Source: Pseudomonas eutrophicaquae (lineage in GTDB: Bacteria; Pseudomonadota; Gammaproteobacteria; Pseudomonadales; Pseudomonadaceae). Taken from it: a stretch of 64,000 nucleotides of DNA. The stretch is taken from assembly GCF_023544715.1 (NCBI RefSeq), contig NZ_JAMJEZ010000004.1:62001-126000 (forward strand), written 5' to 3'. Positions 41,361-57,740 of this stretch are shown here, one piece after another. The notes under the pieces were generated by a model that searched no databases, was not told where the DNA came from, and worked only from the letters and a program-made list of their open reading frames with translations. Every line of letters starts with the position of its first letter. The first letter of the stretch is position 1. Both the position numbers and the translations under genes were made by a program.

Positions 41361-42566
41361 CTACCGCACCTCAGGCGTATCAATCACCAGCACCTGGGTG
41401 CTGCTCTCAGCGGTCTTGACCGGTGGCAGGTCGCCGAACCACTCCCCTTCAGTCGGGCTGCCGGCGCGGGAGATGCGCGCGACCAGCTGCACTTCGGGGA
41501 AGCCGGAGAGCTTGAGCTGCGGCATCATCGCATCACTGTCGGAGAGGCTGACCTCCGCCGGCAGGTCCGCCACCGTCAGGCGCTTGGCTGCCAGCGGCAT
41601 CGGCGGGCCGGAGGCGGCGCGGGCAAAGACGAACACCGTATCGCCCGGCTGCACCTTGTCAGCCAGCTCAGCAGCCAGGCTGACCTTGACCTTCAGTTCC
41701 ACCGCTGGCACCGCCGCCGCAGGCTCCGGTACAGACTCACCACGGGCAATCAGCTCCTCGCGGGCGCGGGCGATGCCGCCCTCGATGGCGGCGCGGGATG
41801 GATCATTGGCCGCCAGCAGCGCCGCCAGCCGCCCCCAGTATTCGATGGCCTCGGCAAAGCGCTGCTCCTCAAAGGCAGCCACGCCGAACAGGCCGAGCAC
41901 GGTCACATCCTGAGGGTCCTGCGCGAGCACTTCCTCACCCAGCTGACGGATTTCCGCGGTCAGGCGCTGGTTGCCGGCAAAGTACAGCGCCTGCGCCCAC
42001 TGGGCGAGCAGCTCAGGATGCCGGCCAGCCTTGTCAACGGCCTGGGCAAAGGCACCCGCGGCCTGCTGTGGACGCTGCTGGCTCATGTAACTGCGCCCAA
42101 GGAAGTACCAGGCCTCAGCGTTATCCGGCTGCGCCTTGACCGTTGCCTCCAGGCGCGCCACCGCCTCTTCCAGGGTCTGCGGCGCCTGGGCCATCTCCTG
42201 ACGCAGCGTGAGCGCAGCGCTGGCCCCCCACTGCAGATAAAGGCCGGCGGCCACCACCGGCAATAGCAGGCTCAGTGCCAGCGGCAGCCAGCGCCCGAGC
42301 GGGCTGCGCACCTGCAAACCGCCCTTTTCGGTATCAGCCAGCAGCTCGCGGGCCGCCTCGCTGCGGCCCTGCTCCAGCTGGGTGCTGTCCAGCGCGCCAG
42401 CCGCATACTGGGCATCCAGCTCGGTAATGCGCTCCTGATAGAGCGCTACATTGAGGGCAGTGCGGTCTTCTTCAGCCTGCGCGCGTTGGCCGCGCAGTAC
42501 AGGAATCAGCAACAGGGCGAGGGCCGCCAGTAGCAGAACGGCGGCAGCCAGCCAGAACGTGGTCAT
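41361..42566 (-). CDS. ccmI: Cytochrome c maturation protein CcmI (CycH)
   Basis: 401 residues. Two N-terminal membrane helices (about 4-24 and 96-113) flank a cytoplasmic loop with the leucine-rich ALYQERITELDAQYAAGALD. A periplasmic TPR region (about 135-270: NAEAWYFLGRSYMSQQRPQQAAGAFAQ) follows, then a C-terminal beta domain. CcmI holds apocytochrome c for haem ligation with CcmF and CcmH. Its ATG overlaps the ccmH stop. It is the last gene of the ccmABCDEFGHI operon and is followed by a hairpin. Confidence 0.95.
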   Translation of the reverse strand: MTTFWLAAAVLLLAALALLLIPVLRGQRAQAEEDRTALNVALYQERITELDAQYAAGALDSTQLEQGRSEAARELLADTEKGGLQVRSPLGRWLPLALSLLLPVVAAGLYLQWGASAALTLRQEMAQAPQTLEEAVARLEATVKAQPDNAEAWYFLGRSYMSQQRPQQAAGAFAQAVDKAGRHPELLAQWAQALYFAGNQRLTAEIRQLGEEVLAQDPQDVTVLGLFGVAAFEEQRFAEAIEYWGRLAALLAANDPSRAAIEGGIARAREELIARGESVPEPAAAVPAVELKVKVSLAAELADKVQPGDTVFVFARAASGPPMPLAAKRLTVADLPAEVSLSDSDAMMPQLKLSGFPEVQLVARISRAGSPTEGEWFGDLPPVKTAESSTQVLVIDTPEVR

Positions 42567-43054
42567 CAGCGATCAGCCTTGTGGTTGAGCAGGTGGTCGA
42601 GGCGCGCACGCTCCTCGGCGGAAAGATCATGGGCTGCCGGCGCTGCGGCCCCCGCGGCACTGGCGCGGCGCCGACGTAGGACGATGCCGCCCAGCACCAG
42701 CAGGCCACCGCCCAGCATCAGCCAGGGCCCGTACCAGAGCAGCCAGGTGCGCGCATTGACCGGCGGGCGATAGCGCACGAAGTCACCGTAGCGATCGACC
42801 AGGTAATCGACGATCTGCTCGTTGCTCTGCCCCTCGCCGAGCATGCGGAAGATCTCGCGGCGCAGATCCATGGCGATCGGCGCATCCGAATCAGCAATGT
42901 TCTGGTTCTGGCATTTCGGGCAGCGCAGCTCCTCGACCAGCGTGCGATAGCGGGCGCGCTCGGCGTCATCCCGAAACTCGTAGGTATCCACTGCCGCCTG
43001 GGCGCTGAGCAGCACGCCCAGCCCCAGACTGGCAGCCAGCAGGATGTGCTTCAT
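42566..43054 (-). CDS. ccmH: Cytochrome c maturation protein CcmH (thiol oxidoreductase)
   Basis: 162 residues. Signal peptide (about 1-20), a small periplasmic domain with LRCPKC (C45, C48) and QNQNIADSDAPIA, then a single membrane helix (about 103-125). It keeps apocytochrome c cysteines reduced for haem attachment, acting with CcmG and CcmI. The ATG (complement of 43052-43054) overlaps the ccmG stop as ATGA. The length is that of the short CcmH (CcmH/CycL) found where CcmI is separate. Confidence 0.96.
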   Translation of the reverse strand: MKHILLAASLGLGVLLSAQAAVDTYEFRDDAERARYRTLVEELRCPKCQNQNIADSDAPIAMDLRREIFRMLGEGQSNEQIVDYLVDRYGDFVRYRPPVNARTWLLWYGPWLMLGGGLLVLGGIVLRRRRASAAGAAAPAAHDLSAEERARLDHLLNHKADR

Positions 43055-43593
43055 TGGCCAGCCTCATCGAGCAATGCGCGGTACAGCGGCGCCAGTTGTT
43101 CACGCCAGACGCGCTCATCGATGGCCCCGACGTACTTGTGACGGACGATGCCGTCCTTGTCGAGCAGGAAGGTTTCCGGCGCGCCATAGACACCCAGGTT
43201 GATGCCGAGGCTGCCTTGCGGATCCGCAACGTTCAGGCGATACGGATTGCCCAGCTGGGCCAGCCAGCGCCGCGCCAGCTCGCTGTCATCCTTGTAGTTG
43301 ACGCCATACACCAGCACGCCTTGAGCGGCCAGACGGTTGAGCATTTCGTGCTCGTCGCGGCAGGTCGGGCACCAGGTGGCCCAGACATTGAGCAGCGCCG
43401 GCTGGCCCCGCAGATCCTCGGCACGCACAGTGCGCTGCGGGTCTTCCAGTGAGGGCAGCGCAAAGCTCGGCAGCGGCTTGCCGATCATCGTCGAGCCGAT
43501 GTCACGGGGATCCAAAAACAGCCCCTTGTAGAGCAGGCCCGCCAGCACCAGAAAGCCCAGCAGCGGCAGGATCAGCAGCAGGCGACGGTTCAT
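43051..43593 (-). CDS. ccmG: Thiol:disulfide interchange protein CcmG (DsbE)
   Basis: 180 residues. N-terminal membrane anchor (about 5-25) and a periplasmic thioredoxin fold with NVWATWCPTCRDE (C75, C78). YGAPETFLLDKDG contains the cis-proline region and the GVYGAPET loop typical of CcmG. It passes electrons from DsbD/CcdA towards apocytochrome c. The ATG at 43591-43593 overlaps the ccmF stop by four bases; a long in-frame extension into ccmF is rejected. Confidence 0.97.
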   Translation of the reverse strand: MNRRLLLILPLLGFLVLAGLLYKGLFLDPRDIGSTMIGKPLPSFALPSLEDPQRTVRAEDLRGQPALLNVWATWCPTCRDEHEMLNRLAAQGVLVYGVNYKDDSELARRWLAQLGNPYRLNVADPQGSLGINLGVYGAPETFLLDKDGIVRHKYVGAIDERVWREQLAPLYRALLDEAGQ

Positions 43594-45560
43594 GCGCGCA
43601 CCTCGCCGCCCAGCGCTTCGCTGACCCGCGTGCGGACCTTGACCCGGTAGCGGCGATCCAGCGCGGCCAGCAGACCACCGAAGGCCATCATCAGCCCGCC
43701 CAGCCAGATCCAGCGCACATAGGGTTTGACGTGCAGGCGCACGGCCCACGCCCCCTCATCCAGCGGCTCGCCCAGCGCAACATACAGGTCACGCCAGAAA
43801 CCGGCATCGATGCCCGCCTCGGTCATCGGCATCTGCTGCACGGTGTACAGACGCTTCTCGGGATAGAGCACGGCAATCTCGCGGCCCGCCTCGATCACCC
43901 GCACGGTGGCCTTGTCAGCGGTGTAGTTGGGGCCTTGATGAGGACGGGCACCCTCGAAGACGAACTGATAGCCACCCAGCTCCGCCGATTCGCCCGGCGC
44001 CATGCGCAGGTCACGTTCGACGGTGTACTGGCTGGACAGCACCACCCCCAGCGCACAGACCGCGATTCCGACATGCGCCATCTGCATGCCCCAGTAACTG
44101 CGCGACAGAACCGGCAGGCCCTTGAGCAGCCCCTTGTGGCGGGTCTTGTCGAGGATGTCACGCACACCGGTCAGCACCACCCAGGCACTCAGCAGCGTGG
44201 TGGCCAGGACGGCCCAGTGGAAGTCGCCCAGCAGCCAGGCGGCGACAAAGCCGAGCACAGCAGCCAGTACCAGCACCGGACGGAGCATGCCGCCCAGCCA
44301 GCGCACCGGGGTGTCCTTCCAGCGCACCAGCACGCCGATGCCAAGGGTCAGCATCAGCAAGGCCATCAGTGGCAGGAACAGCGCATTGAAGTACGGCGGG
44401 CCGACCGAGAGCTTGGCGCCGGTCAGGGCATCGAGTGCCAGCGGATAGAGGGTGCCGAGCAGGATGGTCGCGCAGGACACCACCAGGATCAGGTTGTTGG
44501 CCAGCAGCAGCGTCTCCCGCGACCACAGGGCAAAGCCCACCTGACTCTTGACCACCGGCGCGCGCAGGGCAAACAGCGCCAGCGAGCTGCCGACCACGCA
44601 GAGCAGGAAGATCAGGATGAAGGTGCCACGCTCAGGGTCATTGGCAAAGGCATGCACCGAAGTCAGCACGCCGGAGCGCACCAGGAAGGTGCCGAGCAGG
44701 CTCAGCGAGAAGGCGGCAATCGCCAGCAGCACGGTCCAGCTCTTGAACACGCCGCGCTTCTCCGTCACCGCCAGCGAGTGGATCAGCGCAGTGGCCACCA
44801 GCCAGGGCATGAACGAGGCATTCTCGACCGGGTCCCAGAACCACCAGCCACCCCAGCCCAGCTCGTAATAGGCCCACCAGGAACCGAGCACGATGCCGAT
44901 GCCGAGGAACGACCAAGCCACGATGGTCCACGGCCGCGACCAGCGCGCCCAGGCAGCGTCCAGACGCCCACCCAGCAGCGCCGCGATGGCGAAGGCAAAT
45001 GCCACCGACAACCCGACATAACCCATGTAGAGCATCGGCGGATGCACGATCAGGCCGAAGTCCTGCAGCAGCGGGTTGAGGTCCCGACCATCGGCCGGGG
45101 CATTGGGCAGCAGGCGCTCGAACGGGTTGGAGGTGATGATCATGAACAGCAGGAAGCCGACACTGATCAGGCCCATCACGCCCAGCACCCGGGCCAGCAT
45201 CTCCTCCGGCAATTGGCGCGACAGCACCGCCACGGCAAAGGTCCAGCCAGCCATGATCAACGCCCAGAGCAGCAGCGAGCCCTCATGCGCGCCCCAAACC
45301 GCACTGATCTTGTAGAACCAGGGCAGCGCCGAGTTGGAGTTGCTGGCCACATAGGCCACCGAGAAATCATCGATCAGGAAGGCATGGGTCAGGCAGATGA
45401 AAGCAAACAGCAGGAAGCCGAACTGCCCCCAAGCCGCCGGCTGGGCCAGCCCCATCCACAGGCGGTCACCGCGCCAGGCACCGATCAGCGGCAGGGTGCC
45501 CTGCACCACCGCCAGGCACAGGGCGAGAATCATGGCCAGATGGCCGAGCTCGGGGATCAT
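43590..45560 (-). CDS. ccmF: Cytochrome c haem lyase subunit CcmF
   Basis: 656-residue integral membrane protein with about 15 helices. The tryptophan-rich haem-handling motif is [19 protein letters not shown]. Conserved histidines occur around it ([31 protein letters not shown]). It receives haem from holo-CcmE and ligates it to apocytochrome c with CcmH and CcmI. The length is normal. Both ends overlap neighbours by four bases (ccmE upstream, ccmG downstream), indicating tight translational coupling. Confidence 0.97.
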
Positions 45561-46120
45561 TGCTCATCTCCTTGCGAGGAGGACGGTTGCTGGGCCGCAT
45601 CCTGCACCTTTGTACCGGTGGCGTCCTGCCCGGCTGCAGACGGTTTGCTGGCACCGTAGTTGCCGTAGGCGCTGCCCGCAGCGGCCCCGCCTTGCTGGCT
45701 GGCTTTCTCCAGGGCCTGGGTGACTTCCGGCGGCATGTAGTTCTCGTCGTGCTTGGCCAGCACCTCGTCGGCAATCAGCACGCCGTCCGCGTTCAGCCGA
45801 CCGAGGGCGACGATGCCCTGCCCTTCACGGAACAGGTCCGGGAGGATGCCGCTATAGCGGATGGTCACATCGGCGGCGTAGTCGGTGACCACAAAGTCCA
45901 CCTCCAGCGAATCACGGGAGCGGCTCACCGAGCCCTCCTTGACCATGCCGCCGGCGCGGATCCGCGCACCGTCCGGCACCTCGCCAGCCGCGATCTGGGT
46001 GGGCGTGTAAAACAGGTTGATGTTCTGCTGCAGGGCGCTGAGCGCCAGCCCCACGGCCACGGCCAGGCCTGTGAGCAGGCCGAGGATGATGAACAGGCGC
46101 TTCTTGCGCTGCGGATTCAT
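45557..46120 (-). CDS. ccmE: Haem chaperone CcmE
   Basis: 187 residues. N-terminal signal anchor (about 8-29) then a periplasmic OB fold. Haem is bound covalently to the histidine of the HXXXY motif, here H124-DEN-Y128 in [12 protein letters not shown]. The C-terminal 50 residues are Ala/Gly/Ser/Gln-rich and presumably flexible, somewhat longer than usual. The ATG at 46118-46120 overlaps the ccmD stop. It carries haem from CcmC to CcmF. Confidence 0.97.
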
Positions 46121-46293
46121 TGCTTGCCCTCCCGGCGCAGACGACGCGCCTCTTGCTGCAGGTAGCGGCGGCGTGCCAGAAGCGGCAGCACCACATTGAG
46201 TGCCAGGACCGCCAGGCTGACGGCAAAGCAGGTCCATACGTACACGCCATGCTTGCCCATGGCGAGAAAATCGCTAAAGGATTCAAAACTCAC
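46117..46293 (-). CDS. ccmD: Haem exporter accessory protein CcmD
   Basis: 58-residue membrane peptide, [20 protein letters not shown] at the N-terminus, one helix (about 17-40) and a basic C-terminus ([18 protein letters not shown]). CcmD releases holo-CcmE from the CcmABC complex. The start is GTG (46291-46293), overlapping the ccmC stop as GTGA; the stop overlaps the ccmE ATG. The [12 protein letters not shown] signature is diagnostic. It is easily missed because of its size and non-ATG start. Confidence 0.93.
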
Positions 46294-47033
46294 AGATGGC
46301 GCTCCACTTCGGCTTTGACCCAGCTGGCTCGTGCCTCGCGGCGCAGCACCTCAAGGCGCATGCGCAGCAGCAGGCTGACGGCAAAGAAGGCATAGAACCC
46401 CAGCACCATGATCAGCAGCGGAATCCACATCTCCGGCGGCATGGCGGGCTTTTCGGTGATGGTGAAGGTGGCCGGCTGGTGCAGGGTGTTCCACCACTCC
46501 ACCGAGTACTTGATGATCGGGATATTGATCACCCCAACAATCGACAGCACCGCACAGGCCTTGGCGGCGCTGTCACGATTGCTGATCGACTGGCCGAGGG
46601 CAATCACCCCGAAGTACAGAAACAGCAGGATCAGCATCGACGTCAGGCGGGCATCCCAGACCCAGTACGAGCCCCAAGTCGGCTTGCCCCAGATCGCGCC
46701 GGTGAACAGGGCGATGAAGGTCATCCAGGCGCCGATCGGTGCGGCGCACTGCAGGGCCACATCCGCCAGCTTCATCTTCCACACTAGGCCAACGATGCCG
46801 GCCACCGCCAGCATGATGTAGCAGGACTGGGCAAGGAAGGCTGCCGGGACGTGGATATAGATGATGCGGAAACTGTTGCCCTGCTGGTAATCCGGCGGTG
46901 CAAAAGCCAGTCCCCAGACCAGCCCCACCGCCAGCAGCAGCACGGTCGCCACCGACAGCCAGGGCAGCCAGCGACCGCTGATGTCGTAGAACCACTTGGG
47001 CGAACCCAGCTTGTGAAACCATGTCCAGTTCAT
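46290..47033 (-). CDS. ccmC: Haem transporter/attachment protein CcmC
   Basis: 247 residues with six membrane helices. The haem-handling motif is [13 protein letters not shown], and conserved histidine IYIHVPAAF lies before it. CcmC loads haem onto CcmE. The ATG at 47033 ([19 protein letters not shown]) is chosen as it begins the family N-terminus and has AAGTGAG upstream; a GTG at 47045, right after the ccmB stop, is a possible alternative giving four more residues. Confidence 0.96.
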
Positions 47034-47046
47034 GGGAATGCTCACT

Positions 47047-47718
47047 TCATTCGCCGACGCTGATCTTCAGGCCGGCTGCGATGGCAAGGGGAGTCAGGGT
47101 CACGGCCAGCGCCGTCAGGCTGGCCAGCCAGAGCAGGTGGCCTGCGGCCGGCAGGCCTTGCAGGGCTGCCTGCAGCGCGCCGCTGCCAAGGATCAGCACC
47201 GGGATGTACAGCGGCAGGATCAGCAGCGCCAGCAGCAGACCACCGCGCTTGAGGCCCACGGTCAGCGCCGCACCGACCGCGCCCAGCAGGCTCAGGATCG
47301 GCGTGCCAAGGAGCAGCGTGGCCAGCAGCACCGGCAGGCAGCGTCCGGGCAGGCCCAGCATCAATGCCAAAAGCGGCGCCAGCAGTACCAGGCTCAGGCC
47401 ACAGAGCAGCCAGTGTGCCAGCACCTTGGCCAGAACCAGAAGAGGCAGCGGGTGCGGCGAAAGGACCCACTGCTCAAGCGAGCCGTCCTCAAAATCACTG
47501 CGAAACAGTCCATCCAACGACAGCAAGACTGCCAGAAGCGCCGCAACCCAGAGCAGCCCTGGCGAGAGGGTCTGCAGCTGCTGGCTCTCGGGGCCGACGG
47601 CCAGCGGGAACAGGGCAATGACGATGGCGAAGAACACCAGCGGGTTGAGTAGCTCGGCCGGACGGCGAAACAGCAGGCGCGTCTCGCGCACCAGCAGCTG
47701 TGTGAAGACGTTACTCAC
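47047..47718 (-). CDS. ccmB: Haem ABC exporter membrane subunit CcmB
   Basis: 223-residue permease with six hydrophobic helices. The N-terminus [26 protein letters not shown] and the [35 protein letters not shown] stretch are typical. With CcmA and CcmC it forms the complex that releases haem-CcmE by ATP hydrolysis. The start is GTG (47716-47718) and overlaps the ccmA stop by eight bases. Confidence 0.96.
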
Positions 47719-48355
47719 AGGCCATCCCCCGCCGCGACAGATCCAGCTCGCGATAACCGGACGGGCGCTGCCCGAGGGTGTGGTGAGTGGTCAGCACCAC
47801 CATGCCGCCGGCTTCGCAGTGCCGGGCGAGGTGGGCTTCGAGCTGGGCCACGCCCTGCTTGTCGAGGGCGGTGAAGGGCTCATCGAGGATCCACAGCGGC
47901 GGCGGATCCAGATAGAGACGCGCCAGCGCCACGCGGCGCTGCTGACCGGCCGACAGAGTGTGGCAGGGCACATCCTCAAAGCCCCGCAGCCCTACGGCAG
48001 CCAGCGCTTGCCAGATGGCGGTACGGCTGGCCGGCACCTGCAGGGCGCACAGCCAGGCGAGGTTTTCCTCGGGGCTCAGCAGTCCCTTGATGCCGGCCGC
48101 ATGGCCGATCCACAACAGATTGCGGGCCAGGGTATCGCACTGCTGCTCCAGCGCCTGCCCGCTCAGGCGGATTTCGCCGGCGCTCGGCTGCATCAGCCCG
48201 GCCAGCAGGCGCAAGAGGCTGGTCTTGCCGCTGCCATTGGGGCCGGCAATCTGCACCATTTCGCCCGGGCGCAAAGTCATGTCGAGCTGCTCGAACAGCA
48301 GCCGCTGGTCACGCTCGCAGGCAAGCTCGCAGGCTTCAAGGAAGGGACTGGTCAC
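47711..48355 (-). CDS. ccmA: Haem ABC exporter ATP-binding subunit CcmA
   Basis: 214 residues. ABC ATPase with Walker A GPNGSGKT (38-45), a signature close to [16 protein letters not shown], and Walker [13 protein letters not shown]. It powers release of haem-CcmE. The start is taken as GTG at 48353-48355 ([20 protein letters not shown] follows); the in-frame sequence further upstream is unlike the family. First gene of the nine-gene ccm operon; all junctions down to ccmI overlap or nearly touch. Confidence 0.95.
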
Positions 48356-48415
48356 AGCATGGCTATCCGTCGGCGCTCCGGGGAGGCCGGCCGTCTGCCG
48401 GCCGGGTCGGCGCGC

Positions 48416-48421
48416 ATTATA
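48416..48421 (-). promoter_or_regulatory. Candidate -10 element of the ccm operon
   Basis: TATAAT on the minus strand, about 60 bases before the ccmA start. The -35 is not clear at the usual distance. It lies in the 136-base gap between the FleN-like gene and ccmA. Confidence 0.4.
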
Positions 48422-48491
48422 CATAGCCACCCAACGGCCCGATGCGCGGATTTTTCAACAGTGTGTGACCGGCGCTGCGGGCCGAATCGGC

Positions 48492-49322
48492 TCAGGCCGG
48501 CCGTGGACGCGGCTGGTATTGGGCCGCCACCAGATGCTCGATGAAAAACTCCAGGTGCCCGCGCGGATTGGCCGGCAGCGGCCAGCCATCGATGGTCTCG
48601 GCCAGCCGGGCATAGGTCTGGGCGATGCGGCTGCGCGGCTGCAGCTCGCAGACCGCCCCCTGGCGCTGCACGGCGCGGCGCAGGGTGTCGTCCTGGGGCA
48701 CTGCGCCGAGGTAATCCAGCGCGATGCCGTCCAGGTCATCGATCTGCTGCAGCAGGCGCTCATGCAGCGCCCGGCCCTCGGCAGCGTTCTGCGTCATGCT
48801 GGCCAGCAGGCGCACCCGGCGCAGCCCCTGAGCGCTGTTCAGGCGGCGCAACAAGGCCAGCGCAGCGGCCCGGGCTGCCGGCTCATCACTGACCACCAGC
48901 AGCACCTCGCTGGCCGCGCGCAGCAGGCAGCGCACATCCGCCCCGAGCCCCGGCGAGCAGTCGATCAGCAAGACCTGCGGGGGCTGCGCCAGCGTGCTGA
49001 AGGCCTGAATCAGCCCGGCCAGCTGGCGGGCGTCGGGCAGCGGGTCCAGGCTGCTGCCGGCCAGAAGCTGCAGCTCGCCAACCGGCTGGATTGCCTCGGC
49101 CAGCGTGCAGTCACCGGCCAGCACTTGCGCCAGGGTGCGCGGCGGCGCCAGGCCCAGACTGACGGCCACCTCCGGCAGGGCAAAGGCGGCATCGACCAGC
49201 ATCACCCGCCGGCCACGGGCGGCCAGCGAGAAGGCCAAGTTGATCGCCGCCTGGGTCTTGCCGACGCCGCCCTTGCCACTGGCCAGCGCAATCACCTGGA
49301 CCGGGCTCAGTGGCTTGCTCAT
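48492..49322 (-). CDS. FleN-like MinD/ParA-family ATPase
   Basis: 276 residues, closely resembling FleN (FlhG), the ATPase that binds FleQ and restrains flagellar gene activation in Pseudomonas. Walker A GKGGVGKT (16-23) is intact. The C-terminus WPLPANPRGHLEFFIEHLV (247-265) is almost the FleN sequence. The Walker A-prime site, DADLGL in FleN as I recall it, here reads DAAFAL (44-49), so one conserved Asp is lost. The switch II region is DCSPGLG instead of DTAAGIG. The ATG overlaps the stop of the FleQ-like gene, so the partners are made together. No flagellar genes flank it. Confidence 0.85.
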   Translation of the reverse strand: MSKPLSPVQVIALASGKGGVGKTQAAINLAFSLAARGRRVMLVDAAFALPEVAVSLGLAPPRTLAQVLAGDCTLAEAIQPVGELQLLAGSSLDPLPDARQLAGLIQAFSTLAQPPQVLLIDCSPGLGADVRCLLRAASEVLLVVSDEPAARAAALALLRRLNSAQGLRRVRLLASMTQNAAEGRALHERLLQQIDDLDGIALDYLGAVPQDDTLRRAVQRQGAVCELQPRSRIAQTYARLAETIDGWPLPANPRGHLEFFIEHLVAAQYQPRPRPA

Positions 49323-50761
49323 GCCTCGTCCTCCTCGTCACGGCGCTGCATGCCGTATTTGCGCATCTTTTCCACCAGCGTGGTACGCCGCAGGCGCAGC
49401 CGCTCGGCCGCCCGGGCCACGACCCCACCGGCATCGTCCATCGCCTGCTGGATCAGCACCTGTTCAAGGTTGCCCAGATAGGCCTTGAGGTCCAGCCCGC
49501 CCACCGGCAGCAAAACCGGCGAATCCAGCCCCGGCAGGCTGGCCTGACTGCTGGCCGCCACCGGAAGCGCCGTGTCCAGCTCCTCGGACAGGTAGCGATA
49601 CTTCTTCGGCAGCTCGCCCACCCCGACCACTCCATAGGGATGCATGATGGCCAGACGCTCGACCAGATTGGCCAGCTCGCGCACGTTGCCGCGCCAGTCG
49701 TGCTGGCACAGCGAGAGCAGCGCTGCGGAGTTGAAGCGAATCGAGCCGCGCTTTTCATGCTCCAGACGGGCGGTCAGCTCGTTGATCAGCAGCGGAATAT
49801 CCTCGACCCGCTCACGCAGCGGCGGCAGCTCGATGGTGAAGCGGCTCAGCCGGTAATAGAGATCACTGGAGAACTGTCCGACAGCAATCCGCGGCTCAAG
49901 CCCGGGTTGCGAGGCAGCGACAATGCGGACATTCAGGGGCCGCGGCTGGCTGTCGCCTAGGCGCTCGAAGCAGTCCTCCTGCAGCAGACGCTGCAGACGT
50001 CCCTGCGCCGAGGGCGGCAGGCAGCCGATCTCGTCCAGGAACAGCGTGCCCCCGGCGGCCATTTCCAACCGCCCGGGCCGCTCATGCAGGGCGCCCGCAA
50101 ATGCACCCTGCTGATAACCGAACAACTCGCCCTCCAGCACCGCTGGATCAACCGCCGCACAGTTGAACGGCACGAAGGGCTGCTCACGGCGCGGCGAGTG
50201 GTAGTGCAGGTTGCGCGCCACCACCTCCTTGCCACTGCCCGGCTCGCCCAGCAGCAGCACGCTGCACTCGGTCTGTGCCACCTGCTGCAGCTGCTCGCGC
50301 ACCTCCTGAATGGCGCGGCTGGTACCGACCAGGCTGCGGAACAGGTTCGGCTCGCGCAGCAGGCCGCGGTCACGGTCCCGGTCATAGACCTGCCGGTACA
50401 CCTGCACGCGGTGCAGGGCATCGGTCAGCTGGCTGTAGCTGGGCGGCATGTCCAGCTGGGCCAGCACCCGGCGGCGCAGCTCATCGGGCCAGCTGGCGTA
50501 CTCCTGCGCTCCAAATAGCAGGATCGGCAGGTGCTCGACCGTCCCGCCGAGCTGGCGCAGCAGCCGCAGCCGGTGACTGGCCTGCCGCGGCCCGAGCAGC
50601 AGGCAGGAAAGCACCGGCGCGCCCTGGGCCTGCCATTCCGCCAGCACGTCCTCGCCCTGGCAGATCAGGAAGGGCTCGCCGAGAAACTCGAGGATCACCG
50701 CCAGGTCATGGCAGCGCTGGGGGTCATCATCTATCAGCAGCAAACGGGCATCACGCAGCAT
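49319..50761 (-). CDS. FleQ-like enhancer-binding protein with altered sigma-54 loop (GAFAGA)
   Basis: 480 residues. N-terminal degenerate receiver domain (1-125, FleQ type), LFRS (140-143, part of the c-di-GMP site in FleQ), AAA+ domain with Walker A GEPGSGKE (172-179), post-Walker R183 and Walker B TLFLDE (239-244). The Fis-type helix-turn-helix (447-470, VVARAAERLRLRRTTLVEKM) is nearly FleQ. The sigma-54 contact loop is GAFAGA (219-224) in place of GAFTGA. DNA binding and c-di-GMP sensing are thus likely retained but sigma-54 activation doubtful. The ATG at 50759-50761 lacks a strong ribosome site. Coupled to the FleN-like gene; divergent from moxR. Confidence 0.87.
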   Translation of the reverse strand: MLRDARLLLIDDDPQRCHDLAVILEFLGEPFLICQGEDVLAEWQAQGAPVLSCLLLGPRQASHRLRLLRQLGGTVEHLPILLFGAQEYASWPDELRRRVLAQLDMPPSYSQLTDALHRVQVYRQVYDRDRDRGLLREPNLFRSLVGTSRAIQEVREQLQQVAQTECSVLLLGEPGSGKEVVARNLHYHSPRREQPFVPFNCAAVDPAVLEGELFGYQQGAFAGALHERPGRLEMAAGGTLFLDEIGCLPPSAQGRLQRLLQEDCFERLGDSQPRPLNVRIVAASQPGLEPRIAVGQFSSDLYYRLSRFTIELPPLRERVEDIPLLINELTARLEHEKRGSIRFNSAALLSLCQHDWRGNVRELANLVERLAIMHPYGVVGVGELPKKYRYLSEELDTALPVAASSQASLPGLDSPVLLPVGGLDLKAYLGNLEQVLIQQAMDDAGGVVARAAERLRLRRTTLVEKMRKYGMQRRDEEDEA

Positions 50762-50830
50762 GATCGGTCGCACCTGGGGCAGAAAGGGGGCAAGACGACA
50801 CGCCAAGGCGACCCGTCCCGTATCGGCGGC

Positions 50831-50859
50831 AGTTAAGCCAAAACCCCGCCAGCAGTCAA
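50831..50859 (-). promoter_or_regulatory. Sigma-70 promoter of the FleQ-like gene
   Basis: Minus strand: TTGACT (complement of 50854-50859), a 17-base spacer, and TTAACT (complement of 50831-50836). The start would be near 50824, giving a leader of about 60 bases. The -35 is overlapped by a FleQ-box-like palindrome. Confidence 0.72.
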
Positions 50860-50868
50860 ATAGATGAC
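50855..50868. promoter_or_regulatory. FleQ-box-like operator GTCAAATAGATGAC
   Basis: Both half-sites, GTCA and TGAC, stand six bases apart, as in the FleQ box GTCANTAAATTGAC; the core is A/T-rich but not identical. It covers the -35 of the FleQ-like gene and lies 110 bases before moxR. Autorepression, and perhaps control of the bat operon, is inferred. Confidence 0.6.
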
Positions 50869-50977: not shown

Positions 50978-51937
50978 ATGTCCCACCGTGACGCCCTGCT
51001 TGCCCTGCGCCAGTACCTTGCCAGCCAGATCCTCGGCCAGGAGCGGCTGCTCGATCGCCTGCTGATTGCCCTGCTCGCCGATGGTCACCTGCTGGTCGAA
51101 GGCGCGCCGGGGCTGGCCAAGACCAAGGCGATCAAGGATCTGGCCGCCGGTCTGGAAGCAGAGTTTCACCGCATCCAGTTCACCCCGGATCTGCTGCCGG
51201 CCGACATCACCGGCACCGAGATCTACCGCCCTGAGGATGGCAGTTTCGTATTCCAGCGCGGGCCGATCTTCCACAACCTGGTGCTGGCCGATGAGATCAA
51301 CCGCGCGCCAGCCAAGGTGCAGTCAGCGCTGCTGGAGGCCATGGCCGAGCGGCAGGTGAGCATTGGCCGCACCACCTGGGCCCTGCCGCCGCTGTTTCTG
51401 GTGATGGCCACCCAGAACCCCCTCGAGCAGGAAGGCACCTATCCGCTGCCCGAAGCGCAGCTCGATCGCTTCCTGATGCACGTCAAGCTCGGCTACCCGG
51501 ATGCCTCGGTGGAGCGGCGCATCCTGCAGCAGGCACGCGGCGAGGCCCTGTGCGGCGAGACCCAGCCCGAGCAGCGCCTGAGCCAGGAAGCGATCATGGC
51601 GGCCCGCCACGAGATCCTCGGCCTGTACATGGCCGATGCGGTGGAGGAGTACCTGGTGCAGCTGGTGATGGCCACCCGCACCCCGGCACGCTTTGACGCC
51701 GAGCTGGCCGAGTGGATCGCCTGGGGCGCCAGCCCGCGCGGCTCGATTGCGCTGGATCGCTGCGCACGGGCACATGCCTGGCTGGCCGGGCGCGATTTTG
51801 TCAGCCCCGAGGACATCCAGAACGTGCTGTTCGATGTGCTGCGTCACCGCATCATCCTGTCCTTTGAGGCCGAGGCGGCCGGCATCGATCAGGATCGGGT
51901 GATCCAGCGCCTGCTCGATGTGGTCGCGGTGGCCTGA
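50978..51937 (+). CDS. MoxR-family AAA+ ATPase
   Basis: 319 residues. Walker A GAPGLAKT (42-49), Walker B LVLADEINRAP, and sensor stretch LVMATQNPLEQEGTYPLPEAQLDRF are textbook MoxR. These ATPases act as chaperones with VWA-domain partners, which are encoded downstream here. The ATG at 50978 begins MSHRDALLALRQYLASQILGQE. First gene of a six-gene operon (MoxR, DUF58, DUF4381, VWA, VWA-TPR, BatD) in which every following junction overlaps or nearly touches. Confidence 0.95.
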   Translation: MSHRDALLALRQYLASQILGQERLLDRLLIALLADGHLLVEGAPGLAKTKAIKDLAAGLEAEFHRIQFTPDLLPADITGTEIYRPEDGSFVFQRGPIFHNLVLADEINRAPAKVQSALLEAMAERQVSIGRTTWALPPLFLVMATQNPLEQEGTYPLPEAQLDRFLMHVKLGYPDASVERRILQQARGEALCGETQPEQRLSQEAIMAARHEILGLYMADAVEEYLVQLVMATRTPARFDAELAEWIAWGASPRGSIALDRCARAHAWLAGRDFVSPEDIQNVLFDVLRHRIILSFEAEAAGIDQDRVIQRLLDVVAVA

Positions 51938-51943
51938 CGCGCC

Positions 51944-52891
51944 ATGCACGCCTCCCCCGCGATCCCCGGCGTGACGATCGGGCTGGCTGAGCTCCTGGAG
52001 ATCCGCCATCACCTGCGCCAGATCCAGCTGTTTTCCAAGGATGAGCGGCGCAGCCCGCTGATCGGCCTGCACCAGTCACGCCTGCGCGGACGCGGTGTGG
52101 ATTTCGACCAGGTGCGGGTCTATCAGCCGGGTGACGATGTGCGCACCATCGACTGGCGGGTCACCGCCCGCACCCGCGAACCCCACACCAAGCTGTTCCA
52201 TGAGGAGCGCGAGCGGCCGGTCCTGCTGCTGGTCGAGCAGAGTCCGGCGCTGTTTTTCGGCAGCGTGCGCGGCTTCAAGTCGGTGCTGGCGGCTGAAGTG
52301 GCGGCGCTGTTTGGCTGGGCGGCCCTGCAGCATAACGACCGGATCGGCGGACTGGTCTTCGATGGCCAGCAGTGCAGCGAAGTGCGCCCGCGACGCAGCA
52401 AGCAGAGCCTGCTGCAACTGCTCGGCCGCCTGGTGCGCGCCAATCAGGCACTGGCCAGCGCGCCGCCCGCTGCCTCCCCGGGACATGGCCTGCCCCGGGC
52501 CCTGCGCCGGGCCCGCGAGATCCTGCGTCCGGGCAGTCTGGCGCTGCTGATCGCGGACGAGCGCAGCCTGGACCACGCCGCCGAGCAGCAGATCGACCTG
52601 CTGGCGCAGCACTGTGATTTGATTCTGGTGCCGATCAGCGACCCGCTCGAACACCATTTGCCGGCGGCTGGTCTACTGCGCTTTGCCGATGCGCAGTGCA
52701 GCCTGGTGCTGGACAGCAACGATCCTCGGGTGCGCGAGGCCTGGCAGCAGCAGGCCCGCGAGCGCCAGGCGCGCTGGCAGCGGCTGGCGCAAAAATCCGG
52801 CCTGGCGCTGCTGCCCCTCAGCACCGGCCGCCCGCTACTCGAGCAACTGCAGGCGCAGCTGCAAGCCCCGCAACGGAGTCGTCAGGCATGA
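51944..52891 (+). CDS. DUF58-domain protein of the MoxR/Bat operon
   Basis: 315 residues. The DUF58 signature is RGRGVDFDQVRVYQPGDDVRTIDWRVTARTREPHTKLFHEERE (about 45-90). No membrane helix is evident, so it is probably cytoplasmic. The C-terminal half has a VWA-like fold (LALLIADERSLD) without a clear metal site. Its partner role with MoxR is inferred from constant co-occurrence. The ATG is six bases after the moxR stop; the end overlaps the DUF4381 start. Confidence 0.92.
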   Translation: MHASPAIPGVTIGLAELLEIRHHLRQIQLFSKDERRSPLIGLHQSRLRGRGVDFDQVRVYQPGDDVRTIDWRVTARTREPHTKLFHEERERPVLLLVEQSPALFFGSVRGFKSVLAAEVAALFGWAALQHNDRIGGLVFDGQQCSEVRPRRSKQSLLQLLGRLVRANQALASAPPAASPGHGLPRALRRAREILRPGSLALLIADERSLDHAAEQQIDLLAQHCDLILVPISDPLEHHLPAAGLLRFADAQCSLVLDSNDPRVREAWQQQARERQARWQRLAQKSGLALLPLSTGRPLLEQLQAQLQAPQRSRQA

Positions 52892-53394
52892 CGGATCGGG
52901 AAGCCCTGCTTGCCCAACTGGCCCCCCTGCACCTGCCGGCCGCGCCCTCGCTCTGGCCCCCGGCGCCCGGCTGGTGGCTGCTGGCGGCCATGCTGCTGGG
53001 CCTGACCGCCGCCGCGCTGTATCGCTACCGCCTGCGCACGCCCAGCGCCCCGCCCGCTCCGCCCACGATCGATCTGGAGCCTTATCGACAGAGCGCCCTG
53101 GAAGCCCTGCAGCAACTGCCGCGCCCCTATGACGGCGCGCCCGCCGGCCCCTGGCTGCAGGCCCTCAATGCCCTGCTCAAACGGCTGTGCCGGGCCCGCT
53201 ATCCGGACAGCGCCAGCCATACCCTGAGCGGCCGTGCCTGGCTGGCCTTTCTCGACAACCGCTGCCCAGCCGCCGGGCTGACACGCTGGATGATTCTGGT
53301 CGAGGGCGGCTACCGTGCGGACTGTCGCCTGGATGACAAGGCCATCGAGGGCCTGCAGCAGGCCGTGGCCACCTGGATCCAAAAACATGCCTGA
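52888..53394 (+). CDS. DUF4381-domain membrane protein
   Basis: 168 residues. One membrane helix (about 25-45, APGWWLLAAMLLGLTAAALYRY) with a Pro-rich N-terminus and a cytoplasmic helical domain ending in WMILVEGGYRADCRLDDKAIEGLQQAVATWI. DUF4381 occurs in MoxR/VWA operons and presumably helps assemble the VWA proteins. Start overlaps the DUF58 stop as ATGA; end overlaps batA by eight bases. Confidence 0.88.
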   Translation: MTDREALLAQLAPLHLPAAPSLWPPAPGWWLLAAMLLGLTAAALYRYRLRTPSAPPAPPTIDLEPYRQSALEALQQLPRPYDGAPAGPWLQALNALLKRLCRARYPDSASHTLSGRAWLAFLDNRCPAAGLTRWMILVEGGYRADCRLDDKAIEGLQQAVATWIQKHA

Positions 53395-54388
53395 GTTTGC
53401 CTGGCCCTGGGTGTTCGCCCTGCTACCGCTGCCCTGGCTGCTGCGCCGCCTGCTACCGGATGCACAGCGGGACGAGCCGGCCCTGCAGGTCAGCGCGCTG
53501 GACGAGCTGGCGCCACCCACCGAACCCCGGCGCACGCCCCTGCTCGGCCCGCCCGTCCGCCAGCTGCCTTATCTGCTGATCTGGCTGCTGCTGGTCATCG
53601 CGGCCGCCCGTCCGCAGTGGCTGGGCGAGCCGCTGCCGGTACCCTCCAGCGGGCGCGATCTGCTGCTGGCGGTGGATGTCTCAGGCTCCATGGAGCAGTT
53701 CGACATGCGCCATGCCGAGCGCTCGATCAGCCGACTGCAGCTGGTACAGGCGCTATTCGGCCCGTTCATCGAGCAGCGTCAGGGCGACCGGATTGGCCTG
53801 ATCCTGTTCGGCAGCCGGCCTTACCTGCAGGCACCGCTGACCTTTGATCGCAGCACAGTGCACACCTGGCTGCGCCAGGCACAGGTCGGGATTGCCGGAT
53901 CACAAACCGCGCTGGGCGATGCGATAGGGCTGGCGATCAAGCGCCTGCGCCAGCGCCCGGCCAACAGCCGGGTGCTGATCCTGGTCACCGATGGCGCCAA
54001 CACCGCCGGCTACCTGCCGCCGCTGACCGCCGCCCGCCTGGCGGCTGCTGAAGGCATCCGGCTGTACACCATCGGCATCGGCGCAAGCCCCGACGATCTG
54101 GAGCAGCTCGGGCCAGACCAGCTGATTCAGGGCCTGGATCTGGATGAGCCCCTGCTGCGCGAAATCGCCGATATTGGCCGCGGCGCTTATTTTCGCGCCC
54201 GCAGCGGTCAGGAGCTTAAGGCCATCACCCACACGCTGGATCAGCTCGAACCGGTCGCCCAGGCGCCGCGCCGCGCTTTTCAGATCCACCCGCTGCACCA
54301 CTGGCCGCTGGCGGCCGCCCTGCTGCTGAGCGTCGGGCTGGCGGTGCAGCGGCACGGTTTGCGCAGGCGCCCGAGGGACTGTTCATGA
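53387..54388 (+). CDS. batA: BatA-like VWA-domain membrane protein
   Basis: 333 residues. Two N-terminal hydrophobic segments (about 5-22 and 58-75) and a C-terminal helix (about 302-320) flank a VWA domain with an intact MIDAS: DVSGSM (97-102), the Thr in GSQTALGDAIG, and the Asp in LVTDGANT. It can thus bind a metal ion and a partner. BatA-type proteins are aerotolerance-linked by name but the molecular role is unclear. Overlaps both neighbours; coupled to batB by ATGA. Confidence 0.9.
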   Translation: MPEFAWPWVFALLPLPWLLRRLLPDAQRDEPALQVSALDELAPPTEPRRTPLLGPPVRQLPYLLIWLLLVIAAARPQWLGEPLPVPSSGRDLLLAVDVSGSMEQFDMRHAERSISRLQLVQALFGPFIEQRQGDRIGLILFGSRPYLQAPLTFDRSTVHTWLRQAQVGIAGSQTALGDAIGLAIKRLRQRPANSRVLILVTDGANTAGYLPPLTAARLAAAEGIRLYTIGIGASPDDLEQLGPDQLIQGLDLDEPLLREIADIGRGAYFRARSGQELKAITHTLDQLEPVAQAPRRAFQIHPLHHWPLAAALLLSVGLAVQRHGLRRRPRDCS

Positions 54389-56115
54389 GCTGGCTGCCCC
54401 ACCTGAGCCGCCCCCTCTGGCTGCTCGCCCTGCCCCTGCTGGCCTTGCTGCTGTGGCTGCTGTGGCGGCGGCGTCCGCGCCAGAGCAGCTGGCAACGCCT
54501 GCTGCCCCCGCCGCTGCAACCCTGGCTGCTGCGCGAGGGGGCCAGCGCGCGGCAGCGCCTGAGCCCCTGGTGGCTGCTCGGCATCGGCTGGCTGCTGGCC
54601 GTGCTGGTGCTGGCCGGCCCCGGCTGGCAGCGGCTGGCGCAGCCACTGTCCGGGCGCAGCGAAGCGCTGGTGGTGATGATTGAGCTGACCCCGGATCTGC
54701 TGGCGACCGACCTTGCCCCCAGCCGTCTCGAGCAGGTGCGCCGCAAGCTGCGGGACCTGCTGGACGCGCGCGCCGACGCACCCACTGCCCTCATCGTCTA
54801 CGCCGGCAGCGCCCATGTGCTGATGCCGCTGGCCGAGGATCCGCTCACCGCCCACAACCTGCTAAGCGCCCTGCATCCGCGCCTGATGCCGCTGCCGGGC
54901 CGGCGGGCTGATCTGGCCGTCGAACGGGCCCTGGCACTGCTTGAGCAGAGCGCCAACGGTCACGGCCAGCTGCTGCTGCTGACCGGCCAGCTGAGTGCTG
55001 AAGAGCGCGAGGGCCTGCGCCGTCAGCGGGCCGCACACCCGCAGCGCCTGTCGATCCTCGGTGTCGGCACGCTGCAGGGCGCGCCCATCAGCGACCCGCA
55101 AGGCGGCCTGCTACGTGATCAGGACGGCGCCATCCGCCTGCCTCGCCTGCAGGAAGCAGCATTGATTGCCAGCGCCGACGCCTATCAGCGCCTGAGTCTT
55201 GATGAGCGCGACCTGCAGGCGCTGGGCCTGCTGACGCCCTCCCCGCTCGGCCAGTCCAGCACAGGCCACCCGCCGCAGACCAGGCAGGTCTGGGCCGATC
55301 AGGGGCACTGGCTGCTGCTGGCCCTGTTGCTGCTGGCCGCCTGTGGCGCGCGGCGCGGCTGGCTGCTGGTGCTGCCGCTGCTGGTGCTGCCGCCGGGCGC
55401 CGAGGCCGCTGACCTTGAGGCCCTCTGGCGGCGTGCTGACCAGCGTGGCCTGCGTCTGCTGGAAGCCGGGCAGCCCGAACATGCGGCCCGGCAGTTCCGC
55501 GACCCGCACTGGCAGGGCATCGCGCACTTTCGCGCCGGCGACTACGAGGCCGCAGCCGACGCCTTCGCCAGCGCCGCGGGTGCCGTGGCCCATTACAACC
55601 GCGGCACTGCCCTGACCTTTGCCGGCGACTACGAGGCCGCGCGCCAGGCGTATCGCCAGGCGCTGCGCGACGATCCACAGTTTGAGGATGCCCGCCATAA
55701 TCTGCAGCATCTGGAGCGCTGGCTCAGCGAGCAGCCCACCCCTGCCCCGCCGCCCCCAGCGCAGACAACGCCGAGCACGGCGGCGGAGCAGCCTGCCGCC
55801 AGCCTGCCTGAGCGCCCACCCGCGCATACGCCAGCCGCAGCACAGCCCCTCCCACACCCGCCGCCCACGCCGGCCCCGCGTGCCACCGACATTGCGCCGG
55901 CAACCCCCGCGCAAGGCGCGAACGAGGCGCCGCAATCAGCGCCGCTGCACAAGACGACCGAGCCTCCAGCGCTGCCCCGCCCCCTTGAGCGGCCGCTCGA
56001 TGAGCAGCAGCAGGCGCTCGAGCACTGGCTGCGGCAGATCCCCGATGACCCCGCCGAATTGCTGCAGCGCACCTTCTGGCAGGACCTGCAACAGCAGCAG
56101 GAGCGCACCCAATGA
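54385..56115 (+). CDS. BatB/BatC-like VWA-TPR protein with degenerate MIDAS
   Basis: 576 residues. Membrane segments near 8-27, 62-78 and about 308-345; VWA domain (about 90-280); TPR repeats (about 360-450, GQPEHAARQFRDPHWQGIAHFRAGDYEAA); then a Pro/Ala-rich tail. The metal motif, usually DxSxS, reads E100-L-T102-P-D104, and the TDG site reads TGQ (200-202), so metal binding is probably lost although the LATDLAPSRLEQVRRKL framework remains. Sequence is otherwise typical, with no frameshift. Sits between batA and batD with 4-base overlaps. Confidence 0.88.
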   Translation: MSWLPHLSRPLWLLALPLLALLLWLLWRRRPRQSSWQRLLPPPLQPWLLREGASARQRLSPWWLLGIGWLLAVLVLAGPGWQRLAQPLSGRSEALVVMIELTPDLLATDLAPSRLEQVRRKLRDLLDARADAPTALIVYAGSAHVLMPLAEDPLTAHNLLSALHPRLMPLPGRRADLAVERALALLEQSANGHGQLLLLTGQLSAEEREGLRRQRAAHPQRLSILGVGTLQGAPISDPQGGLLRDQDGAIRLPRLQEAALIASADAYQRLSLDERDLQALGLLTPSPLGQSSTGHPPQTRQVWADQGHWLLLALLLLAACGARRGWLLVLPLLVLPPGAEAADLEALWRRADQRGLRLLEAGQPEHAARQFRDPHWQGIAHFRAGDYEAAADAFASAAGAVAHYNRGTALTFAGDYEAARQAYRQALRDDPQFEDARHNLQHLERWLSEQPTPAPPPPAQTTPSTAAEQPAASLPERPPAHTPAAAQPLPHPPPTPAPRATDIAPATPAQGANEAPQSAPLHKTTEPPALPRPLERPLDEQQQALEHWLRQIPDDPAELLQRTFWQDLQQQQERTQ

Positions 56116-57740
56116 GTACCCGCCCCATGAACCCTTGGATACTGCTGATCGTCTGGCTGGCCAGCAGCCTGGTCGAAGCCAGCGGCCTGACCGCCAGCGT
56201 GGACCGGCGCAGCCTGACGCTGGGCGAGATCGTCGAACTGCGTCTGGAGGCCGATACAGCCTTGCTGGATGGGCGCCCCGATCTGCAGGCGCTCAGCGCC
56301 CAGTTCGAGATCCTGGAAACCCGCCTGCTCGGCCGGGACAGCAAGGACGGCGACGGCCGCCACCGCGAGCAGCTGCTGATCACCCTGCAGCCACGCCTGA
56401 GCGGTGAGTTGCGGATTCCGGCGCTGCAGATCGGCGACAAGCGCTCGCAGCCGATTCGCCTGCAGGTCATGGCCGCCCGCCCGCTACAGGCGCCGAGTGA
56501 GCTGGCGGCGGTGTTCATCGACGCCCAGCTCGATCAGCCGCGTGTCTATGTGCAGGCGCAGAGCCTGCTGACCCTGCGCATCTTTCACTCGGTGGCCCTG
56601 TACGATGACAGCCAGCTCAGTCCGCTGGAAATCGAGGATGTCCACGTGGTCCCGCTGGGGCGCGCTCGCACCTATGAGCAGCAGATCAATGGAGTGCGTC
56701 ACGGGGTGATCGAGGTGCGCTATGCCCTGTTCCCGCAGCGCAGTGGCACGCTGCAGATTCCGCCACTGCTGTTCAGCGCCACGGCGCTGGAGGAAAGCGG
56801 CAGTGTGCCGGGGCTGCGCAGTGGGCGGCCGCTGCAGGTGCGCTCGCCCAGCCTGCGCCTTGAGGTACGGCCGCGCCCGGCCGACTATCCGGCCGACCAG
56901 CCGTGGCTGCCGGCACGCTCTCTGCAACTGGAAGAAATCTGGCGCGGCGCCGAGGGCGAAATCCGCGTCGGCGATTCGCTGACCCGCACCCTGCGTCTGC
57001 GCGCCGAAGGCCTGCCGCCCGCCCAGCTGCCAGAGGTCGCACAAGGCCCGCTCCCGGAAGGTCTGCGCCGTTATCCTGACCAGCCCCGCCAGCGCGAGCA
57101 GTCCGCCAGCGGTGGTCTGATCGGTATCCAGGAGCAGGCCAGCGCACTGGTGCCCACCGGCGCCGGTGACTTCCTGCTGCCGGCGATCGAGGTGTTTTGG
57201 TGGAATACCGAAGAGGATCGCCTGGTCAGCAGCCGTCTGCCGGAGCGTCCGCTGCAGGTGCTGGCCAGCCGCTTGCCTGCCGCCCCCAGCGTTACCCCCA
57301 GCAGCGTCGAGACAGCGCCCGCAGCCCGGCTCTGGCCCTGGCAGCTGGCCAGCCTGCTGCTGCTGTGCGCCAACCTGCTAACCCTGGCGCTGTGGTGGCG
57401 GGCGCGCCGCCAGCCGGCCATCCTGCGCAGCAGTACCCCCAGCGCGCCCAGCACCCGCATCCTGCTGGAGGATCTGCGCCGCGCCTGCCAGCACAATGAT
57501 GCACAGGCCGCCCGTCAGGCACTGGATGCCTGGGCACGTCAGCAGCCGCATACCTTGGCCGAACTGGCCGCACGCCACAGTGCGCTCAATGTCGCGCTCG
57601 ATGGCCTGAACGGCGCGCTGTACAGCGAAAGCGGCCCGCGCTGGCAGGGGGAATCGCTCTGGCAGGCCGTGGTCCGGCTGCCTGCAGGCGTTGGGGATGG
57701 CGAGCACAACGGGGAGCTACCACCGCTCTATCCACGCTGA
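56112..57740 (+). CDS. batD: BatD-like membrane protein
   Basis: 542 residues. Signal peptide (about 1-24), a long periplasmic beta-rich region (SVDRRSLTLGEIVELRLEAD onward) of the BatD family, a membrane helix (about 412-432, WPWQLASLLLLCANLLTLALWW) and a short cytoplasmic helical domain. Presumed to act with the VWA proteins at the inner membrane. The ATG overlaps the upstream stop as ATGA. Last gene of the moxR-bat operon; convergent with pepN across 50 bases. Confidence 0.9.
   Translation: MSTRPMNPWILLIVWLASSLVEASGLTASVDRRSLTLGEIVELRLEADTALLDGRPDLQALSAQFEILETRLLGRDSKDGDGRHREQLLITLQPRLSGELRIPALQIGDKRSQPIRLQVMAARPLQAPSELAAVFIDAQLDQPRVYVQAQSLLTLRIFHSVALYDDSQLSPLEIEDVHVVPLGRARTYEQQINGVRHGVIEVRYALFPQRSGTLQIPPLLFSATALEESGSVPGLRSGRPLQVRSPSLRLEVRPRPADYPADQPWLPARSLQLEEIWRGAEGEIRVGDSLTRTLRLRAEGLPPAQLPEVAQGPLPEGLRRYPDQPRQREQSASGGLIGIQEQASALVPTGAGDFLLPAIEVFWWNTEEDRLVSSRLPERPLQVLASRLPAAPSVTPSSVETAPAARLWPWQLASLLLLCANLLTLALWWRARRQPAILRSSTPSAPSTRILLEDLRRACQHNDAQAARQALDAWARQQPHTLAELAARHSALNVALDGLNGALYSESGPRWQGESLWQAVVRLPAGVGDGEHNGELPPLYPR

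Follow-up and report, generated by a model that had tools for sequence, protein, structure and literature searches.

A FleQ-FleN pair without the GAFTGA threonine and the catalytic FleN aspartate in the Pseudomonas linyingensis clade (Geopseudomonas), a candidate sigma-54-independent c-di-GMP switch

In Pseudomonas eutrophicaquae, a 64,000-nucleotide stretch of contig NZ_JAMJEZ010000004.1 (positions 62,001 to 126,000 of the forward strand; assembly GCF_023544715.1), hereafter the window, contains two adjacent genes encoding homologues of the regulator FleQ and of its partner FleN. On the reading of the sequence, the two genes overlap and lie upstream of the cytochrome c maturation (ccm) genes, outside any flagellar context (Table 1). 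An earlier note on this DNA had described a four-base overlap and a position between ccm and moxR-bat without flagellar neighbours. The overlap was recovered as an ATGA, and gene reading placed the pair between the two operons. Further, a tblastn search (E 1e-5) of the window and its two 20-kb flanks with 50 gene calls, taken from three stretches of the same genome that hold flagellar and chemotaxis genes, gave no match to any of these 50, flagellar genes outside them not having been tested, and the FleQ control was recovered in the same search. The fleQ-like start is the ATG at 50761, aligned to the MWRE start of its relatives. Spacing between the two genes is comparably tight in the genus mates, whose start codons are not settled.

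Table 1. Features of the fleQ-fleN locus, in coordinates of the window
Feature	Position	Strand	Remarks
fleQ-like gene	49319..50761	-	480 amino acids (aa); REC-like FleQ domain, AAA+ domain, Fis-type helix-turn-helix (HTH)
fleN-like gene	48492..49322	-	276 aa; MinD/ParA-type ATPase
fleQ stop/fleN start overlap	49319..49322	-	4 bp, ATGA
GAFAGA loop	50090..50107	-	residues 219-224; A222 corresponds to P. aeruginosa T224
DAA for DAD	49185..49193	-	Ala46 corresponds to P. aeruginosa FleN D48
Ser298	49868..49870	-	at the arginine finger R300 (R300xDL) of P. aeruginosa FleQ
LFRS linker motif	50333..50344	-	residues 140-143; part of the c-di-GMP site; unchanged in 9/9 genus members
HTH_8 DNA-binding domain	49355..49474	-	0/26 canonical-invariant positions changed in at least 7/9 genus members
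FleQ-box-like dyad GTCATCTATTTGAC	50855..50868	-	-107 to -94 of the fleQ start
ccm genes	41361..48430	-	downstream of fleN, co-directional; named from translations
moxR-bat genes	50978..57740	+	divergent from fleQ; named from translations; moxR start MSHRDALLALR

The FleQ-like protein matches the Pfam families PF06490 (residues 6-121, E 2.7e-23), PF00158 (144-311) and HTH_8 (430-469), and its nearest solved structure by sequence is FleQ (8p53, E 3.8e-191). It is an orthologue of the FleQ of Pseudomonadaceae and was found as a single copy in its own genome. An AlphaFold model of FleQ, built with 12 sequences, reached a mean predicted local distance difference test (pLDDT) score of 55 and was not used. 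Similarly, the nearest solved structure to the FleN-like protein by sequence is FleN (8pb9, E 1.7e-69). Its AlphaFold model (pLDDT 72.6) has FleN 5j1j as the top structure match, which confirms the FleN fold, and the C-terminal WPLPANPRGHLEFF tail is intact. The possibility that this protein is another member of the MinD/ParA family was rejected because FleN structures are its closest solved relatives and the C-terminal tail is complete.

Both proteins have lost a key residue. The earlier note had pointed to GAFAGA in place of GAFTGA in FleQ and to DAA in place of DAD in FleN, and both substitutions extend through all nine genomes sampled from the window's genus (g1). Where P. aeruginosa FleQ has T224, the nine members carry A, P, P, P, P, P, V, P and V, and the loop reads GALPGA in three genomes. 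Threonine is present in 21/21 canonical FleQs of the alignment table and was kept in all 40 distinct loci outside g1 and a second, Azotobacter-like genus (g17), these 40 (two sets of 21, with 2 shared) being the family loci read at this position. The FleQ of the genus thus lacks the sigma-54-contacting threonine of the GAFTGA loop. FleN D48 is replaced in the nine members by A, S, N, S, S, S, S, S and S, respectively. Aspartate occupies this position in 18/18 canonical and 4/4 g17 sequences, and DAD was read in all 76 non-genus loci among the best 80 named loci; the FleN scan comprised these best 80, and the motif was read in them and in 23 other loci. The catalytic Asp48 is therefore missing, with Ala in its place in the window's protein. 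In P. aeruginosa, FleN D48A is an ATP-binding, hydrolysis-incompetent variant that was used to stabilise the FleQ-FleN complex for cryo-electron microscopy (PMC10723142). The DAA of the window is this same engineered substitution, and the FleN chains 8pb9_A and 8p53_A likewise read DAA. Changes at other FleQ positions are less uniform. N202, whose PspF equivalent we take to be part of the glutamate switch, is S in 8/9 genus members and kept in the window, and R306 is lost in three genus mates. R300, the arginine finger of P. aeruginosa FleQ (PMC10723142), is S in the window only; the 8 remaining genus members and 21/21 canonical sequences have R.

The FleQ-like protein was used as the query against 199 genomes of Pseudomonadaceae, of which 195 gave a match at E 1e-60 or better and 191, on reading of the match table, at E 1e-130; the four that match only between these thresholds may hold other activators. 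The best matches (66-69%, the nearest 69%) were the eight other sampled members of the genus, among them P. linyingensis LMG 25967, P. oryzagri MAHUQ-58, Pseudomonas sp. A-1 and a strain filed as Stutzerimonas stutzeri K1. The Linyingensis clade, named Geopseudomonas and listed as Pseudomonas_K in GTDB, includes both P. linyingensis and P. oryzagri (PMC10797017). The window's genus is this clade, sampled here with nine genomes including that of the window, and it is supported at 100/100 in the FleQ tree. Two loci, L160 (unclear start) and L167 (partial), were omitted from this tree and from the count of invariant positions, and L055, the same gene as L026, was omitted from the tree. In 9/9 genus genomes fleQ and fleN are adjacent, with ccmA next and co-directional, and moxR lies at most about 9 kb beyond the fleQ side in 8/8 genus mates. 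Since the pair, its adjacency to ccmA and the loss of both residues recur in all nine, chance or sequencing error is not the explanation. Judged from these alignments, a FleQ without GAFTGA together with a FleN without D48 is a genus-wide trait and not the oddity of a single genome. The earlier note, which viewed one genome, was thus right about the features and too narrow about their extent, and the arrangement has a partial precedent in Azotobacter (PMC2885672, PMC12022260). The strain filed as S. stutzeri K1 (L066) falls in the window's genus by both its fleQ-fleN locus and genome grouping and is probably mislabelled.

The earlier note had also held that FleQ keeps its DNA-binding helix and a c-di-GMP-linked motif, which it called LFRS. 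Both are indeed retained, LFRS being unchanged in 9/9. When invariant positions were defined over 19 canonical sequences, those changed in at least seven of the nine genus members numbered 27/164 in the AAA+ domain, 1/18 in REC, 0/5 in the linker and 0/26 in the HTH. The positions of the cyclic di-GMP (c-di-GMP) pocket and interface (138, 142-145, 149, 151, 185, 186, 330 and 334) are also unchanged in 9/9, so that all 11 predicted c-di-GMP-binding residues are present throughout the genus; we take 142, 143, 145 and 186 to belong to this site. The text of PMC10723142 names positions 138, 144, 149, 151, 185, 330 and 334, and its section 9 gives R144 as a c-di-GMP contact in P. aeruginosa FleQ. 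Walker residues K180, E181, D245 and E246, sensor II R363 and the FleN contact I374 are kept in 9/9 as well.

For fleQ, four genus pairs gave ratios of nonsynonymous to synonymous substitution (dN/dS) of 0.10-0.20, two pairs from g17 gave 0.13-0.16 and four canonical ones 0.10-0.15. For the AAA+ part alone they were 0.07-0.15, 0.06-0.12 and 0.03-0.06, respectively, and for fleN 0-0.29 (four genus pairs), 0.19-0.21 (two g17 pairs) and 0.04-0.12 (three canonical pairs). From these values and the domain counts, both genes look to be under purifying selection, with the ATPase part somewhat relaxed. FlhC was matched in 7/9 g1 genomes, 3/4 g17 genomes and 1/24 others, the last weakly (E 1.6e-11). 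Pseudomonas oryzagri (G009, g1) has no match to FlhA, FlhC or rod proteins and keeps the FleQ-FleN pair, and G033 (g17), where FlhA is absent, keeps FleQ and FleN. No FleQ was found at E 1e-130 in the three FlhA-negative genomes checked outside g1 and g17 (G012, G029 and G046). One explanation for the altered residues is a relic in decay, in which the polar flagellum was lost and FleQ and FleN drift without function. The long branch of the window's FleQ (0.7) would fit such drift, as would the elevation of AAA+ and fleN ratios over the canonical ones. A relic is nevertheless quite unlikely, since reading frames are open in 9/9, dN/dS is well below 1, the HTH and the c-di-GMP pocket are kept, and the pair persists in all nine genomes, the FlhA-less species included, in contrast to the three FlhA-negative genomes checked elsewhere, which have no FleQ match at E 1e-130.

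The window's genome (2.55 Mb in 57 contigs, 99.85% complete) was searched for a second, canonical fleQ or fleN, the check that the earlier note had proposed, and neither was found. It contains four strong sigma-54 activator domains, namely the FleQ-like protein and three with GAFTGA, which on reading are NtrC-like, V4R-like and a response regulator beside a kinase; no second FleQ was found among these four. No second FleN was found in the genome, the next-best FleN-like match having E 1.6e-12. The GAFAGA/DAA pair, as read from the genome, is thus the organism's FleQ/FleN pair and the only one found. A FleR orthologue is also missing from these four: the three activators besides FleQ share 38-42% identity with a Pseudomonas FleR, against 75% for the orthologue of that FleR in genome G040. 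RpoN was found, as were FlhA, FlhE and six matches to the rod-protein family, and flhF and fliA were identified by reading. The fetched stretches carry open flagellar genes in collinear order with a relative (G062), and fliK gave only a partial match, near a contig end. FlhC had no match in the whole genome, and the FlhD and FlhC of G062 had none on the fetched flagellar stretches. In G062, flhD-flhC lie between an open reading frame (ORF) resembling the FlhB C-terminus and motA, where the window's genome has a 272-bp gap (L011:9986-10259). Flagellar genes are therefore present with no FlhDC, GAFTGA FleQ or FleR found. Between flhF and flhE lies a 183-aa ORF without a Pfam match (L010:17233-17784), in a position close to that of fleN in Pseudomonas (flhF-fleN-fliA).

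Given that the flagellar genes on the fetched stretches are open and collinear and that neither FlhC nor another FleQ was found, flagella might still be under the control of the pair, by way of sigma-70 or a non-canonical loop, in this flhDC-less species if not more widely. We consider this unlikely: T224 is lost, and in the window R300 too, no FleR orthologue is present, the pair is kept where FlhA is absent, and fleQ of Azotobacter vinelandii is dispensable for flagella (PMC2885672). The earlier note had set two cases against its own proposal, the first being a genome in which this pair, as the only FleQ and FleN, drives functional flagella, and the second a GAFAGA in many flagellar FleQ orthologues. 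The window's genome comes close to the first case, as it has many flagellar genes while no other FleQ or FleN and no FlhC were found; we saw no sign, however, that these genes are driven by the pair.

In Pseudomonas, fleQ and fleN each lie in the neighbourhood of other flagellar genes (PMC2885672). In A. vinelandii, by contrast, the two genes are unlinked to flagellar genes and the flagella need flhDC, not fleQ (PMC2885672); algD is repressed there by FleQ, and mutation of fleN likewise gives a mucoid phenotype (PMC12022260). The likeness to the present pair lies in a FleQ and FleN dispensable for flagella run by FlhDC, genes away from flagellar genes, and repression of an exopolysaccharide gene. 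The RpoN-interaction motif is stated to be conserved in A. vinelandii FleQ (PMC12022260). The four g17 genomes are probably Azotobacter, because their FleQ, at 501 aa and extended at the C-terminus, resembles the published A. vinelandii protein. Their T224 position reads S, G, S and S, as against A, P or V in the window's genus, and their FleN keeps D48 (DGD) in 4/4, whereas the window's genus has lost it. The two genes are also far apart on a shared contig in g17, about 354 kb in G057 and 3.6 Mb in G045. As the FleQ tree groups g1 with g17, though weakly (76/89), one shared origin of the T224 losses is possible, and they may represent one event or two. The FleQ of the FlhA-less G033 (L157) reads GAFGGA, with ELCG for ELFG, and is further changed than its GAFSGA sisters.

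The surroundings of the pair raise a third alternative, in which recruitment to the ccm operon has made it a regulator of cytochrome c maturation or of respiration. The order and direction fleQ-fleN-ccmA are kept in 9/9 genomes, and a simple scan found no terminator-like site between fleN and ccmA in the window; the same kind of scan found no consensus sigma-70 promoter or terminator at 48200-51000. Recruitment is still very unlikely, given the situation in other genera. In G010, one contig carries fleQ at 173 kb, ccm at about 175-182 kb and fleN at 195 kb, and the distance between ccmA and fleQ-fleSR in G040 is about 8 kb. With ccm near flagellar regulator genes outside the genus, the fleQ-fleN-ccm adjacency can be a leftover. 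The fleQ of G010 (L063:9811-11280) is a lone GAFTGA gene near one end of the ccm operon and about 22 kb from fleN; no fleSR was seen beside it, FlhA lies beside fleN, and the FlhC match is weak.

The P. aeruginosa FleQ-FleN system (8p53, 8pb9) has the same proteins, domain order, c-di-GMP pocket, Ile374 and HTH as the pair described here, and differs in keeping GAFTGA and, in wild-type FleN, D48. It serves both sigma-54 flagellar genes and sigma-70 biofilm genes (PMC10723142). In the published model, FleQ-FleN represses biofilm promoters from two FleQ boxes at low c-di-GMP and is switched by c-di-GMP, and it is the cycle of hydrolysis by FleN that allows FleQ to become active again at the sigma-54 promoters of flagellar genes; at the sigma-70 promoters, pel among them, neither protein has to hydrolyse ATP (PMC10723142). 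Loss of T224 and D48 with retention of the pocket, Ile374 and the HTH is what would be expected if only the biofilm half of this system is selected. Thus, the pair is probably a natural separation of function, a c-di-GMP-responsive sigma-70 regulator without sigma-54 activation or a FleN ATPase cycle. Mechanistically, FleQ with FleN would bind FleQ boxes and repress sigma-70-type promoters at low c-di-GMP, the targets being exopolysaccharide or adhesin genes and probably fleQ itself. Binding of c-di-GMP would rearrange the complex, leading to relief of repression or to activation. FleN would be locked as a long-lived ATP-bound dimer, and the ATPase of FleQ, needed only at sigma-54 promoters, would therefore be dispensable and eroding. 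The flagellar half of the switch would have become useless once an FlhDC-type system had replaced the polar one, a replacement that we infer for the genus. We give roughly even chances to the fuller proposal of a hard-wired FleQ-FleN in Geopseudomonas, in which hydrolysis-dead FleN and sigma-54-blind FleQ make a pure, ATPase-independent c-di-GMP switch at sigma-70 promoters that arose after flagellar replacement. The earlier note's suggestion of a repurposed c-di-GMP switch therefore survives as the best-supported reading, in view of T224 lost in 9/9, the intact pocket, FlhC in 7/9 and the pair of P. oryzagri, with c-di-GMP binding and the lack of sigma-54 activity predicted from residues. Motility is described for several species of Geopseudomonas, one strain of which has its fleQ listed among biofilm genes (PMC8218464). 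Pseudomonas fluorescens F113 has a second flagellar apparatus, the subject of a paper that mentions FlhDC, FleQ and Azotobacter in its abstract (PMC5031763).

Several observations weigh against this separation of function. The DNA binding of the pair, the lack of sigma-54 activation by FleQ and of ATP hydrolysis by FleN, the c-di-GMP response and the sigma-70 targets are all predictions from sequence. The S and N found at FleN position 48 differ from the A that was tested. Glu332, given as a c-di-GMP contact in PMC10723142, could not be matched, the reference reading Ile there. Genomes G027 and G178 have FlhA and no FleQ at E 1e-130, and G002 has FleQ and no FleN at E 1e-25. With many open flagellar genes but no FlhC, the window's genome leaves room for a flagellar role of the pair there. 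The putative target sites are also not distinctive. The GTCA-N6-TGAC dyad before fleQ is exact in 5/9 genus members and has one mismatch in the other 4/9, but it also precedes fleQ in the 3/3 non-genus loci examined (2 exact, 1 with one mismatch); since it occurs both in the genus and outside, fleQ autoregulation is plausible without being peculiar to the genus. A search of PMC5026340 gave nothing on such autoregulation. Across the genome, the FleQ-box pattern is not clearly enriched (40 sites against 35 in the reversed control), so the regulon cannot be read from such a scan. One of two FleQ-box-like sites with 2 mismatches lies about 240 bp before a gene for a 1365-aa DUF4214/RTX protein (L244:9685-14027), which adjoins genes for a GDP-mannose dehydratase and a glycosyltransferase. 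This site is a possible FleQ target and was kept as a lead.

Bacterial enhancer-binding proteins that lack GAFTGA and act at sigma-70 promoters are known (PMC10274813). Examples include the NtrC proteins of Rhodobacter capsulatus and Caulobacter and VpsR of Vibrio. In these NtrCs the loop is deleted, whereas in the present FleQ it stays, its threonine is replaced and the partner ATPase has a matching loss. A FleQ freed from flagella is already known in Azotobacter; a FleQ-FleN pair with both T224 and D48 lost was not found described in the main texts of open-licence PMC papers.

How one complex acts by two mechanisms, with sigma-54 and ATPase activity at flagellar genes and with sigma-70 at biofilm genes, was left open by the 2023 structures (PMC10723142). 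A lineage that seemingly keeps one half, and is changed at the very residue that structural biologists mutated, makes this question testable. In particular, the reading predicts that the c-di-GMP response at sigma-70 promoters is independent of FleN hydrolysis and of the GAFTGA threonine. It further suggests that an old master regulator survives as a biofilm regulator after the flagellar system has been replaced, and it advises caution in annotation, as a gene annotated as fleQ is not always a flagellar activator.

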